IMG/VR virus record: IMGVR_UViG_3300018018_000017
Location: 1 to 39,947 of that record
Reading direction: 5' to 3' (one strand)
Length of the DNA: 39,947 nucleotides
Source: a virus
The translations under genes were made by a program, and so were the position numbers. The notes under the pieces were generated by a model. The model saw only the letters and a program-made list of their open reading frames with translations. It was not told the DNA's origin and ran no database searches. Within the stretch, counting starts at the first letter, position 1. Each line of letters begins with the position of its first letter. This document shows, in pieces, positions 18,296-21,587 of this stretch.

Positions 18296-19081
18296 ATGGC
18301 ATTTCAAGACGTAGCGACAAATTTGGGGCTGTCGGAAGAAGTGGTTAAAGCGATCCCAGAGGAACTACGGAATGATAAGTCTTTTGAACCCATCAAAGAT
18401 TTTACAGGTTTAATGACTTCATTTCGTGATGGGCAGAAGATGATCGGAGGTTCGGTTCGTATCCCCAAGGAAGATGCCAAACCGGAAGAGATCGAAGCGT
18501 TTTACAACAAATTGGGTAGACCGGAAAAATCTGATGGATACAAATATTCACTTCCGTATCCAGAATATATTGCATGGGATCAGGACCGTATTAAGGATTT
18601 TGTTGCCAATGCTCATAAGTCTGGATTTACCCCAAAACAGGTTCAGACCGCATTGGATTGGTATGGAAAGACAGTGGCCGAGGATTATCAGGCAAAAAAG
18701 ACAGCATTTGAATCTGCCACGGCTACACTCAAGACAGAGTGGGGCGGGGCGTTTGACAGAAATTTGGCTTTGGCAAAAAGAGCCAGGGACTTGTACGGCG
18801 GTGAAGAGGCCAAGGCGTTTTTTGCAGATGATCCATCTGGAAATGATCCTATCCTTATTAAGATGTTGGCTAAAATGGCATCCGATCTTGAAGAGGGAGA
18901 TTATCTTGGTGGACCAGGAGAACCTACTGGTTTAACGACAGAAGATGCCAAGTCGAAGATTGCAGAAGTTTTAAAGAATCCCGAAGATTTATACCATGCT
19001 AAATTCGCAGGTAAACCGGGTCACGAAGAACGAGTTAAGGAAGTTCAGACCTGGTACGATCAGGCTTATCGGGCAATTTAA
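18296..19081 (+). CDS. Capsid scaffolding protein
   Basis: A 261-residue acidic, mostly helical protein directly upstream of the capsid module. It contains the scaffold-type segment FYNKLGRPEKSDGYKYSLPY, followed by helical repeats (QVQTALDWYGKTVAEDYQAK, KTEWGGAFDRNLALAKRARD). T7-like and related podoviruses use such a protein to nucleate the procapsid and then lose it. GGAG site and spacing are good. Strong context and sequence pattern; no protease motif is seen. Confidence 0.85.
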   Translation: MAFQDVATNLGLSEEVVKAIPEELRNDKSFEPIKDFTGLMTSFRDGQKMIGGSVRIPKEDAKPEEIEAFYNKLGRPEKSDGYKYSLPYPEYIAWDQDRIKDFVANAHKSGFTPKQVQTALDWYGKTVAEDYQAKKTAFESATATLKTEWGGAFDRNLALAKRARDLYGGEEAKAFFADDPSGNDPILIKMLAKMASDLEEGDYLGGPGEPTGLTTEDAKSKIAEVLKNPEDLYHAKFAGKPGHEERVKEVQTWYDQAYRAI

Positions 19082-19091
19082 CGGAGTGTTT

Positions 19092-19286
19092 ATGCCAGGA
19101 ATGATTCATTTGTTTCCCATTAAGCATAAGGGGGAACTTAGATCAGCATGGATGTGTGATAAATGCAGAAACGTTTTTGCATTTGATAACAATGAAAAAC
19201 TTTATTGTCCAAAATGCAAGACAGATGGGTATCCAATGAATCTCGATCCCGGTGAGGGAGAGTCGAGTTTAATTGTGACACCTTAA
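19092..19286 (+). CDS. Small zinc-ribbon protein (64 aa)
   Basis: MPGMIHLFPIKHKGELRSAW, with C-x2-C (MCDKCRNVF) and C-x2-C (LYCPKCKTDGYP) forming a zinc ribbon. The ATG follows GGAG. It sits between scaffold and capsid and is followed by a structured untranslated region. Function unknown. Confidence 0.65.
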   Translation: MPGMIHLFPIKHKGELRSAWMCDKCRNVFAFDNNEKLYCPKCKTDGYPMNLDPGEGESSLIVTP

Positions 19287-19289
19287 TAT

Positions 19290-19396
19290 GTCGGGTAGCT
19301 GAAAGGTCCGACTGATACGCAAAGCGCAGGGGAATCCGGTAAGCGGGTAGTTCTCCGAAAGGTTCAGTTTAAACTTCTGTTCATTTTAAATGAACA
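19290..19396 (+). ncRNA. Hairpin-rich leader in front of the capsid gene
   Basis: Four possible stem-loops: GTCGG/CCGAC (19290-19312); CGC-AAA-GCG (19318-19326); GGGGAA/TTCTCC enclosing CCG-GTAAG-CGG (19329-19356); and TGTTCAT/ATGAACA (19378-19396) just before the ribosome site at 19401. Translation of the stretch is not convincing, and surrounding genes are otherwise packed tightly. A structured RNA controlling capsid translation, stability or processing is inferred. Confidence 0.5.
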
Positions 19397-19411
19397 ATTT
19401 GGAGGATTACC

Positions 19412-20290
19412 ATGTCTCAACAGATTACCGTTGCCTTCGTGCAACAGTACACAGATAATGTGCTGATTTTATCTCAGCAAAGGGGTTCCCGTCTTAGGGG
19501 TTCAGTTTACGAAAAACCGTTCAATGCCGGTACGAATGTTTACTTTGAAAGGGTAGGGGCTACCTCTGCCGTTAAAAGAACATCACGTCATGCCGATACT
19601 CCACTGGTTGATACCCCTCATTCCAGACGTAGGGTTTCTCCCGTTCCTTACGATTGGGCGGATTTGATTGACGAACCCGATAAGGTTCGGACTCTTATCA
19701 ATCCAGAAAATGCGTATGCCCAAAATGCGGGATTTGCAATGGGAAGAGCTATGGATGATGAAATCATAGCGGCTCTATGGGGTACTGCTTATACGGGCGT
19801 GGATGGAACCACCACGGTTGCCCTTCCTTCCGGTCAGAAAGTGGCACAGGATGGCACACCTTCCAGTCTAACCGTGGATAAACTTCTGAAGGCCAAGAAG
19901 GTTCTTGATACTAATGAAACCGATCCAGCCGATCCCCGGTCTATTGTTTGTTCGGCGGCAGCAATTCAGGCATTGCTGGGTACTACGGAAGTTAAATCTT
20001 CTGATTACAATACCGTTAAGGCATTGGTTCAGGGAGAGATTAATACCTTCGTGGGATTCGATTTTAAAATGTCTGCAAGACTTCCGTTGGTAACAACTGG
20101 AACGTATCGGGCGGCCTATGCTTATTGCAAGGCGGGTATGGGTTTAGCAATTGGTACGGATATTAAAACCAGGATTACCGAACGACCCGACAAATCCTAC
20201 AGTGTTCAGGTTTATGTCAATATGGATTTGGGTGCAACTCGCATAGAGGACGAAAAAGTCGTAGAAATTCCGTGCCTTGCGGGCGATTAA
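19412..20290 (+). CDS. Major capsid protein
   Basis: A 292-residue protein opening MSQQITVAFVQQYTDNVLIL, with FERVGATSAVKRTSRHADTP, VSPVPYDWADLIDEPDKVRT and GFAMGRAMDDEIIAALWGTA, matching the small HK97-fold capsid family of BPP-1/podovirus relatives (the 'R.....DW.DLID..D......P....A...G.AMGRA.D..I' pattern). It forms the icosahedral shell. It follows the scaffold, has a strong GGAGG site, and is flanked by structured untranslated regions on both sides. Confidence 0.9.
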   Translation: MSQQITVAFVQQYTDNVLILSQQRGSRLRGSVYEKPFNAGTNVYFERVGATSAVKRTSRHADTPLVDTPHSRRRVSPVPYDWADLIDEPDKVRTLINPENAYAQNAGFAMGRAMDDEIIAALWGTAYTGVDGTTTVALPSGQKVAQDGTPSSLTVDKLLKAKKVLDTNETDPADPRSIVCSAAAIQALLGTTEVKSSDYNTVKALVQGEINTFVGFDFKMSARLPLVTTGTYRAAYAYCKAGMGLAIGTDIKTRITERPDKSYSVQVYVNMDLGATRIEDEKVVEIPCLAGD

Positions 20291-20297
20291 TAGTTCG

Positions 20298-20385
20298 CCT
20301 ACCATGAGTAGGAGGAATAACGGGGCCGTCCGATAAGGACGGTTCCAGCAACAATTAAAGTCCTACCGACCCCTGATGGGTAGGA
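20298..20385 (+). ncRNA. Hairpin-rich RNA between capsid and decoration genes
   Basis: Three stem-loops: CCTAC/GTAGG (20298-20312); a 10-bp stem GGGGCCGTCC/GGACGGTTCC with a GATAA loop (20322-20346); and TCCTACC/GGTAGGA (20361-20385). GTAGGA of the first could pair instead with TCCTAC of the third, so two exclusive folds exist. The 132-base gap contains no credible gene. A role in expression balance or mRNA processing is inferred. Confidence 0.5.
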
Positions 20386-20422
20386 TGCCTCTGGGCTACA
20401 AAAATATAGAAGGAGAAATCAG

Positions 20423-20860
20423 ATGGCTACAATTAATGCAAGTTCGATTGAAAAAGTAAAACAGGATGCGATCCCCATTCAGATGTTAGCACCATTTGAA
20501 CAAAAGGGCCGCATTAGGGTGTCAAAGACACAATACACATGGCTTACCGGCTTTCTTGATATTGGTTCTACGGTAACGGGTGCAAGACTTCCCGCAAACG
20601 CCAAGGTTGTTGGTGGATACCTCATGTCAGATGCTATGGCTGCATCTGGAACTCTTCAGGTATCTATTAACAGTGTAAACCTGGCGGCTGCTCTTGCGGT
20701 TGGTGCTGCTACGGCAACCCAACAGCTTCCAGACAAAGACAACTACAAGAACGTTGAAGGAGTTGACTTTGGTGGATTTGCACCAGTTATTACAACTGCT
20801 GGTGCTGTGGCTGTGGCTGGTAGTCAGTTGGCGTTGATCCTGTTTTATGTGGTTGATTAA
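20423..20860 (+). CDS. Probable head decoration/stabilisation protein (145 aa)
   Basis: Follows the capsid gene and has an AGAAGGAGAAATC site. The N-terminus (FEQKGRIRVSKTQYTWLTGF) leads into a beta-rich, Ala/Val-rich body (GARLPANAKVVGGYLMSDAM, VAVAGSQLALILFYVVD). This resembles small virion proteins placed directly behind capsid genes in BPP-1-like phages. The gene is followed by a strong terminator, suggesting a head-gene transcript of its own. Function inferred from position. Confidence 0.65.
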   Translation: MATINASSIEKVKQDAIPIQMLAPFEQKGRIRVSKTQYTWLTGFLDIGSTVTGARLPANAKVVGGYLMSDAMAASGTLQVSINSVNLAAALAVGAATATQQLPDKDNYKNVEGVDFGGFAPVITTAGAVAVAGSQLALILFYVVD

Positions 20861-20872
20861 TTAACAATTAAC

Positions 20873-20902
20873 GGTGGGGGCTTCGGCCTCCACCAGTTTT
20901 TT
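20873..20902 (+). terminator. Intrinsic terminator after the head genes
   Basis: GGTGGGGGC - TTCG - GCCTCCACC forms a 9-bp stem (one G-T pair) closed by a UUCG tetraloop, followed by AGTTTTTT. This is the best intrinsic terminator in the window and should lower tail-gene transcription relative to capsid. Confidence 0.9.
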
Positions 20903-20934
20903 CGGGTTTTTCATATTCATATGGAGGTTTTAAA

Positions 20935-21207
20935 ATGGCAATATCAGGTAGGGATTATTTATTGGGGATTGTGAATCAGATTAATAAAGCCGTTGGGGAA
21001 TTGCCTGATTCTATTTTTATCAAGAATACTGGACACCCTTATTTTTCGGGAAAGGTAGACGGATTTATCGAAGAAGTTGCGGGGGTAAAATGTTTTATCA
21101 AGGATGCGGTGACGGTTGGAACCCCACAGTACATAAGGTATCCCATGATAACAACTTTTGATACCACAACGTACGCACAGGATACAACTGGCCCGGCTCA
21201 GTGGTAA
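20935..21207 (+). CDS. Hypothetical virion-region protein (90 aa)
   Basis: First gene after the terminator, with a GGAGG site. MAISGRDYLLGIVNQINKAV, then FIKNTGHPYFSGKVDGFIEE; probably beta-rich in the second half. No family recognised. Position between head and tail genes suggests a minor structural protein. Confidence 0.65.
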   Translation: MAISGRDYLLGIVNQINKAVGELPDSIFIKNTGHPYFSGKVDGFIEEVAGVKCFIKDAVTVGTPQYIRYPMITTFDTTTYAQDTTGPAQW

Positions 21208-21230
21208 GAATTAAATAATAGGAGGTTACA

Positions 21231-21587
21231 ATGGCAATCGTAGCGTGTGTAGAGGTGAGGGTAGAAGGTAGTCCCAGGGTCAGAATGTTTAAATGGCTTG
21301 CAATGGCCCTGGCTGACACCGGCCAACCGGTTTATCTCCCTGTAGATGCAGATAAAAGTATTCAGGTCGTTGGGACGCTCGGTGCGGCAGGGGCTTGTAC
21401 TATTGAGGGAAGTAATATGGATGGGACTCCCACGTATGCGGCCCTAAATAATCCACAAGGTACTGCCCTGACATTTACCGCATTGGGCATCAAAGAAATT
21501 TTAGAGAATACCTATTTGGTTCGTCCAAACATTACTGCGGGTGATGGCACTACCAACTTGAATGTCTATATGGTGGTGAAGGAATAA
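21231..21587 (+). CDS. Putative beta-rich virion protein (118 aa)
   Basis: Ribosome site AGGAGG. MAIVACVEVRVEGSPRVRMF, with IQVVGTLGAAGACTIEGSNM and YLVRPNITAGDGTTNLNVYM: alternating strands and Gly/Thr turns, similar to small phage decoration proteins with an immunoglobulin- or jelly-roll-like fold. Coupled closely to the next gene. Confidence 0.62.
   Translation: MAIVACVEVRVEGSPRVRMFKWLAMALADTGQPVYLPVDADKSIQVVGTLGAAGACTIEGSNMDGTPTYAALNNPQGTALTFTALGIKEILENTYLVRPNITAGDGTTNLNVYMVVKE

Follow-up and report, generated by a model that had tools for sequence, protein, structure and literature searches.

The leader of the major capsid gene in the phage sequence studied here is apparently a member of an undescribed RNA family. 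In this sequence and its nearest relatives, the repeated bulged hairpins of the leader look like an on/off switch for capsid translation. The sequence, called the window below, is an IMG/VR virus record of 39,947 bases, and all features described lie on its plus strand unless noted. The leader is conserved by structure across podophages with PF19821 capsids, and the family is also present in phages that infect marine SAR11, Alteromonas and Vibrio.

The capsid leader and its relatives

The major capsid gene (19412-20290) belongs to PF19821 and PHROG 3437. A sequence-only reading of the window had described a tightly packed head operon in which this gene is flanked by a hairpin-rich leader of 125 nt (19287-19411) and a hairpin-rich gap of 132 nt (20291-20422). 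Both pairs of coordinates proved exact. Intergenic distances in the operon are mostly 0-25 nt, and the sole other long spacer, of 74 nt, contains a terminator. This intrinsic terminator, GGTGGGGGCTTCGGCCTCCACC followed by AGTTTTTT (20873-20894), is the UUCG terminator that had been placed one gene past the capsid; it is the top-listed and strongest match of the terminator scan. The gene in between (20423-20860) encodes a virion structural protein with a weak match to PHROG 486, and its Shine-Dalgarno sequence (SD) is freely accessible. In the relative L082 a different terminator-like hairpin was seen by eye at the same location, where the scan, with loops of at most 8 bases, did not flag it. 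The very high ratio of capsid to other proteins that these elements were proposed to set is an assumption. A megablast of 18500-21500 against named phages gave nothing useful.

The leader is indeed hairpin-rich. It folds at -37.3 kcal/mol (z -2.46), and 3 of 200 dinucleotide shuffles, the controls for both leader and gap, folded equally well. Three consecutive hairpins can form. HP1 (19290-19312), GUCGG-GUAG-CUGAAAGG-U-CCGAC, has an internal loop in which GUAG lies opposite U, the mirror form of the module described below. HP2 (19312-19329), CUG-AUA-CGC-AAA-GCG-CAG, touches HP1 and HP3 with its end bases. HP3 (19329-19356), GGGGAA-U-CCG-GUAAG-CGG-GUAG-UUCUCC, is the module itself, and its 3' arm (19351-19356) doubles as an anti-SD strand. 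The best fold of the full leader is a long closed helix that excludes HP3. Its 5' arm, GGUAGUUCUCCGAA (19346-19359), pairs with the 3' arm, UUUGGAGGAUUACC (19398-19411), which contains the SD GGAGG at 19401-19405.

The best relative of the leader is found in L118, whose scaffold gene is 48% identical. L118 and L082 derive from a single metagenome, possibly from one and the same phage. The window and L118 have in common the three hairpins and the long helix over the SD. Between their leaders 26 of 26 pairs are kept, with 5 compensated double changes; control alignments slid out of register gave none. The stem of HP1 appears as GUUGG..CCAAC in L118, GUUGA..UCAAC in L289 and GUAAG..CUUAC in L295. 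HP2 in L118 is CUA..CCG-GAA-CGG..UAG, which amounts to three double changes, and HP3 is GGAGAA-U-CGG-AUUGG-CCG-GUAG-UUCUCC.

Covariation extends beyond this pair. With stem arms picked by eye, the HP1 stem is 93.8% paired across 8 leaders against 74% when shuffled, with 10 double-changed cells, and the outer stem of HP3 is 97.5% paired across 10 leaders against 83%, with 9 such cells. A covariance model, R1, was built from two leaders only (window and L118), and its E-values are rough. In a search of 616 kb it found L121 (E 0.0016) and, more weakly, L120 (E 0.36), each placed precisely at the start of the capsid gene. It also matched L289 at E 7e-7, with the match ending exactly at the capsid ATG; this locus had been fetched by a pattern covering HP3 only. 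Fold score, the homologues found or scored by R1 and covariation together define the element as a whole. The proposal of a functional structured RNA in the leader has gained in strength since it was made: the helices of the leader covary and its structure recurs in most relatives.

The sequence-only reading knew of no described RNA family matching the leader or the gap. A search of Rfam 15 with the window region and 28 related loci gave no match above the gathering score or with E<=1. A distant blastn search with the leader among named phages gave nothing useful, and searches of open-access journal literature found no account of such a leader. Inspected by eye, the leader does not have the defining features of a hammerhead, and a leader peptide, MSGS* from 19288, was rejected, as L118 has nothing corresponding to it. 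Immediately before the leader, 19092-19286 encodes a 64-aa Zn-ribbon-like protein with two CxxC pairs. A clear relative lies in the same place in L118, and the protein is absent from most other relatives; as a universal regulator the gene was rejected on these grounds.

The bulged-hairpin module

The module is a hairpin whose internal loop is of the 1x4 type, one pyrimidine facing the sequence RYAR. In full, it consists of an outer stem, one pyrimidine, an inner stem of at least 2 bp, a loop, RYAR and the outer stem again, or of the mirror image of this order. The two sides of the loop are matched: AYAA stands opposite C, and GYAG opposite U. This choice would fit isosteric C.A and U.G wobbles.

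The motif emerges from a survey in which it was not preset. When all bulged hairpins were collected from 81 non-redundant capsid leaders, the 3' bulge AUAA occurred in 22 (0.27 expected) and ACAA in 10 (0.2 expected), and pieces of GUAG were also obtained. With 3-bp outer stems allowed, the full module is present in 55 of the 81 leaders, against 0.6 in shuffles, and was not found in the other 26; here the module was defined from these leaders and then counted in the same leaders. Independent support comes from the bulge survey, an IMG/VR-wide pattern, the loci L289 and L295, the phages ZP6 and K300, and sites in scaffold genes.

The module is also specific in its placement. In its strict form it has a single match on both strands of the window, namely HP3, at 19347. 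Strict matches number 65 in the capsid leaders of 80 relatives, which make up at most about 18 kb; in about 464 kb of relatives, 14 lie elsewhere on the plus strand and 5 on the minus strand. A relaxed form occurs elsewhere in whole genomes at about chance frequency. Across IMG/VR, the pelagiphage form was sought with the pattern GGTTTCCCN{3,7}GGAYAAAAACC. At 73 of the 76 places analysed it precedes the ATG of a PF19821 capsid gene, by 28-75 nt; two of the others are chance matches in unrelated sequence and one lies too close to a contig end.

Examples among distant cultured phages are ZP6 of Alteromonas (capsid 30% identical), with two mirror-form hairpins in its leader, and K300 of Vibrio (27% identical), with one hairpin of each form. 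The K300 leader is identical in the Vibrio crassostreae phages 23E28.1 and 69E27.1. Cultured phages with the element thus include ZP6, 23E28.1 and 69E27.1, and also the pelagiphage Baldr. The module was not seen in the leaders of Vibrio 1.182, MEP301, YeP5, 1.257, Piluca, Skadi-4, Lederberg and SI2, nor found in the capsid leader of the cultured HTVC010P.

Three further observations concern individual leaders. In K300 (L304 196-288; OZ195699.1 4658-4750) an annotated "hypothetical protein" on the scale of 31 aa covers the conserved leader RNA; the gene call is probably false. In the Manatee Spring phage MW202510.1 (L206 36331, minus strand) a relaxed module, GTAGA-C-CCG..TGG-ATAA-TCTAT, lies inside the capsid leader. 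By eye, the leaders of L001, L007, L066, L086, L125 and L295 have another hairpin in common, with a loop like AGCGURAxA and often an A.A mismatch between two short stems; it occurs in pelagiphage and window-clade leaders.

A second site for the module is the start of the scaffold gene, which lies one or two genes upstream of the capsid gene. In many relatives the mirror form occurs within about its first 15 codons. A module of either form was counted at 24 of 70 scaffold-gene starts, against 1.4 in shuffles; deeper within the same genes one was counted in 24 of 344 windows. The stems at the scaffold start change together as the encoded residues change (UCCUG..CAGGA, CUCCG..CGGAG, CCCAA..UUGGG). 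HTVC010P has the module at this position, and the window's own scaffold gene is without it. It is mainly this recurrence at the scaffold-gene start that suggests a putative trans-acting factor. Since the same internal loop is found in HP1 and HP3, in capsid leaders generally and at scaffold starts, the loop would be what the factor binds.

The gap behind the capsid gene

The gap (20291-20422) is hairpin-rich, as had been claimed, folding at -43.8 kcal/mol (z -3.23), with 1 of 200 shuffles equally good. Three hairpins can be recognised. Hairpin I (20298-20312) has the stem CCUAC/GUAGG. Hairpin II (20322-20346), the 10-bp stem-loop of the sequence-only reading, has the loop GAUAA. Hairpin III (20361-20385) is UCCUACC-GACCCCUGAUG-GGUAGGA. 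The first and third stems had been proposed to swap partners. Both exist, and the swap was rejected: the swapped pairs, when forced, carry penalties of 5.5 and 7.9 kcal/mol, and L082 is without the first stem.

In L082, where the next gene is 68% identical, hairpin III alone of the three is kept. Its 11-nt loop is identical, and loop and closing pairs together, CCGACCCCUGAUGGG, are unchanged. The flanking stem is compensated, from UCCUA/UAGGA to CCCCG/CGGGG. A search of IMG/VR with the conserved loop found 22 stretches, among which only the L082 contig (there L114) has a window-like stem; the others look like chance. The length of the gap is not conserved, and in most relatives it is 10-22 nt. 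As a functional structured RNA the gap is weakly supported: a hairpin common to one relative speaks for it, and the variable length and the failed swap speak against it. It is read as an intercistronic element particular to this lineage, which may serve as a 3' stabiliser or a protein site.

Hairpins follow the capsid gene in other relatives too, with unrelated sequences. In L086, L123 and L122 the gap resembles an H-type pseudoknot, with the hairpin CCCCCG-CUGAUAUGC-CGGGGG and a loop that could pair with the downstream GCAUAUCGG. The pseudoknot-like pairs change together in L122 (GGUAUGC/GCAUACC).

A predicted translation switch

Folding predicts two mutually exclusive structures for the leaders of the window and L118, one exposing the SD and one hiding it. 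The analysis is computational throughout, and the energies involved are thermodynamic predictions. When the RNA is truncated after the 3' arm of HP3, it folds without constraint into HP1, HP2 and HP3 in both phages. When the SD is present, the closed fold is ahead, by 12.8 kcal/mol in the window (-51.8 vs -39.0) and by 7.4 in L118 (-60.0 vs -52.6).

The predicted cost of opening the SD sets the capsid gene apart. It is 12.8 kcal/mol in the window, a value reached by 0 of 50 shuffles, against a mean of 2.6 and a maximum of 7.5 for 33 other genes of the window, whose mean equals the shuffled mean. At the level of at most 2 of 50 shuffles, 28 of 81 leaders hide their SD, where about 6% would be expected. 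Strong hiding is found in 8 of 8 tested leaders of the window clade (window, L118, L079, L086, L120, L122, L124 and L125). Most AT-rich pelagiphage leaders have the module and hide the SD no more than shuffled sequence does, so an SD switch is not the readout of the whole family. The module is general; the SD readout is limited to part of the family.

Of the roles once listed for these elements, translation control is the best supported for the leader in the window clade, judging from the modelled SD pairing and competing folds. The leader is rather probably a two-state translation switch of the capsid mRNA, held open by a factor bound to HP3. During its synthesis the leader would fold into HP1-HP2-HP3, with the ribosome site open. 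As the SD emerges, the 3' arm of HP3 (UUCUCC) would leave its hairpin, pair with GGAGG and hide the SD. A factor, most probably a protein of phage or host origin, would bind the internal loop repeated in HP1 and HP3. With the factor on HP3, the leader would be held open and capsid translated; without it, the leader would close. The binding, the identity of the factor and the direction of control are what we infer. A more specific proposal, to be taken as tentative, is that a dedicated phage RNA-binding protein (or a hijacked host one) reads the C/AYAA or U/GYAG loop and co-controls the translation of scaffold and capsid, matching both for head assembly.

The same folds could also operate as a ligand-free kinetic device, open under coupled transcription-translation and closed on released or old mRNA, so that capsid would be made from fresh transcripts while the repeated loops aid folding or RNase protection. 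That the nascent leader has the open fold as its optimum and the full leader the closed one, in the window and L118 alike, would suit such a device. It leaves unexplained why one internal loop is repeated within leaders and why it is kept in leaders without SD pairing and at scaffold-gene starts, and we consider it unlikely. Less likely again is a role in mRNA processing or stabilisation, with the hairpins as RNase III sites or 5' protective stems and those of the gap shielding the 3' end. Strong hairpins do flank the capsid gene on both sides, and the unrelated hairpins behind the capsid in other relatives point the same way; however, a generic stem needs neither a conserved RYAR/pyrimidine loop nor competition between HP3 and the SD, and in most relatives the gap behind the capsid measures only 10-22 nt.

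In 10 of 79 relatives scanned (0.3 expected) the leader is immediately preceded by a perfect extended -10, TGNTATAAT; carriers include L004, L020, L042, L077 and L304, and the sequence suggests a dedicated capsid promoter in those relatives. No window-clade member among the 79 has it, and a sigma-70 promoter directly upstream of the window leader was not found. Hairpins just downstream of a promoter-like sequence in some relatives, together with a terminator one gene past the capsid, would be in keeping with antitermination, in which a put- or nut-like RNA would modify RNA polymerase shortly downstream of a capsid promoter, letting it pass terminators such as the one at 20873-20894. This is quite improbable: no promoter was recognised in the window clade, HP3 shares bases with the anti-SD strand, which points to translation, and the module also lies inside scaffold coding sequence. 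Least credible of all is chance folding or coding constraint with no RNA function. GC-rich intergenic DNA always folds somewhat and the inner stem of the module is short, but the module is enriched over shuffles and over the rest of the genomes, its stems covary, and the IMG/VR-wide pattern stands before this capsid gene at 73 of 76 places.

The proposed switch resembles translational riboswitches and ribosomal-protein leaders, in which exclusive folds share one strand, one exposing and one hiding the SD, and a conserved structured domain (here the covarying HP1 and HP3) precedes the switch. It differs from them in having no Rfam match, in belonging to a phage capsid gene and in repeating a small bulged hairpin instead of having a single compact aptamer. 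The coat-protein operator of MS2/R17 is characterised by a single bulged A and a conserved ANYA loop. The module is like it in its outer stem, bulge, 2-bp inner stem and small loop, and in belonging to phage translational control. Unlike that operator, it has a pyrimidine facing RYAR and a free apical loop, and it occurs in dsDNA phages before the capsid gene itself. An operator of the MS2 type, with a single bulged purine and an ANYA tetraloop, was rejected for the leader, which has a 1x4 internal loop and a variable apical loop.

Lambda boxB, an unbulged 5-bp stem capped by a GNRA-like pentaloop, stands next to a boxA. Like boxB/nut and HK022 put, which recruit a factor or act on RNA polymerase, the leader carries small hairpins in a phage transcript; here, by contrast, conservation lies in the internal loop, and the last hairpin is in competition with the SD. 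On its conserved internal loop and variable apical loops, boxB was rejected for the leader. A kink-turn, with its 3-nt bulge and tandem G.A pairs, does not fit, since GUAG or AYAA faces one pyrimidine and the inner stem starts with C-G pairs. Nor does a fourU thermometer, with four U's on the SD, as the pairing strand here is UUCUCC. In T7, the capsid gene 10, which relies on promoter and ribosome-site strength, likewise has an upstream control region of its own; similarity in sequence or structure was neither found nor expected.

The proportion of capsid to scaffold and other proteins in tailed phages is mostly credited to promoter and ribosome-site strength. A capsid RNA switch with a matching loop at the scaffold start would make capsid dosage a directly testable question of RNA regulation, and the element occurs both in widespread marine phages and in cultured ones. 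The module would extend the catalogue of RNA modules by a small recognition motif. If the proposed co-control of scaffold and capsid is true, it would be a morphogenesis regulon common to podophages of SAR11, Alteromonas and Vibrio, some of them among the most abundant viruses in the sea.
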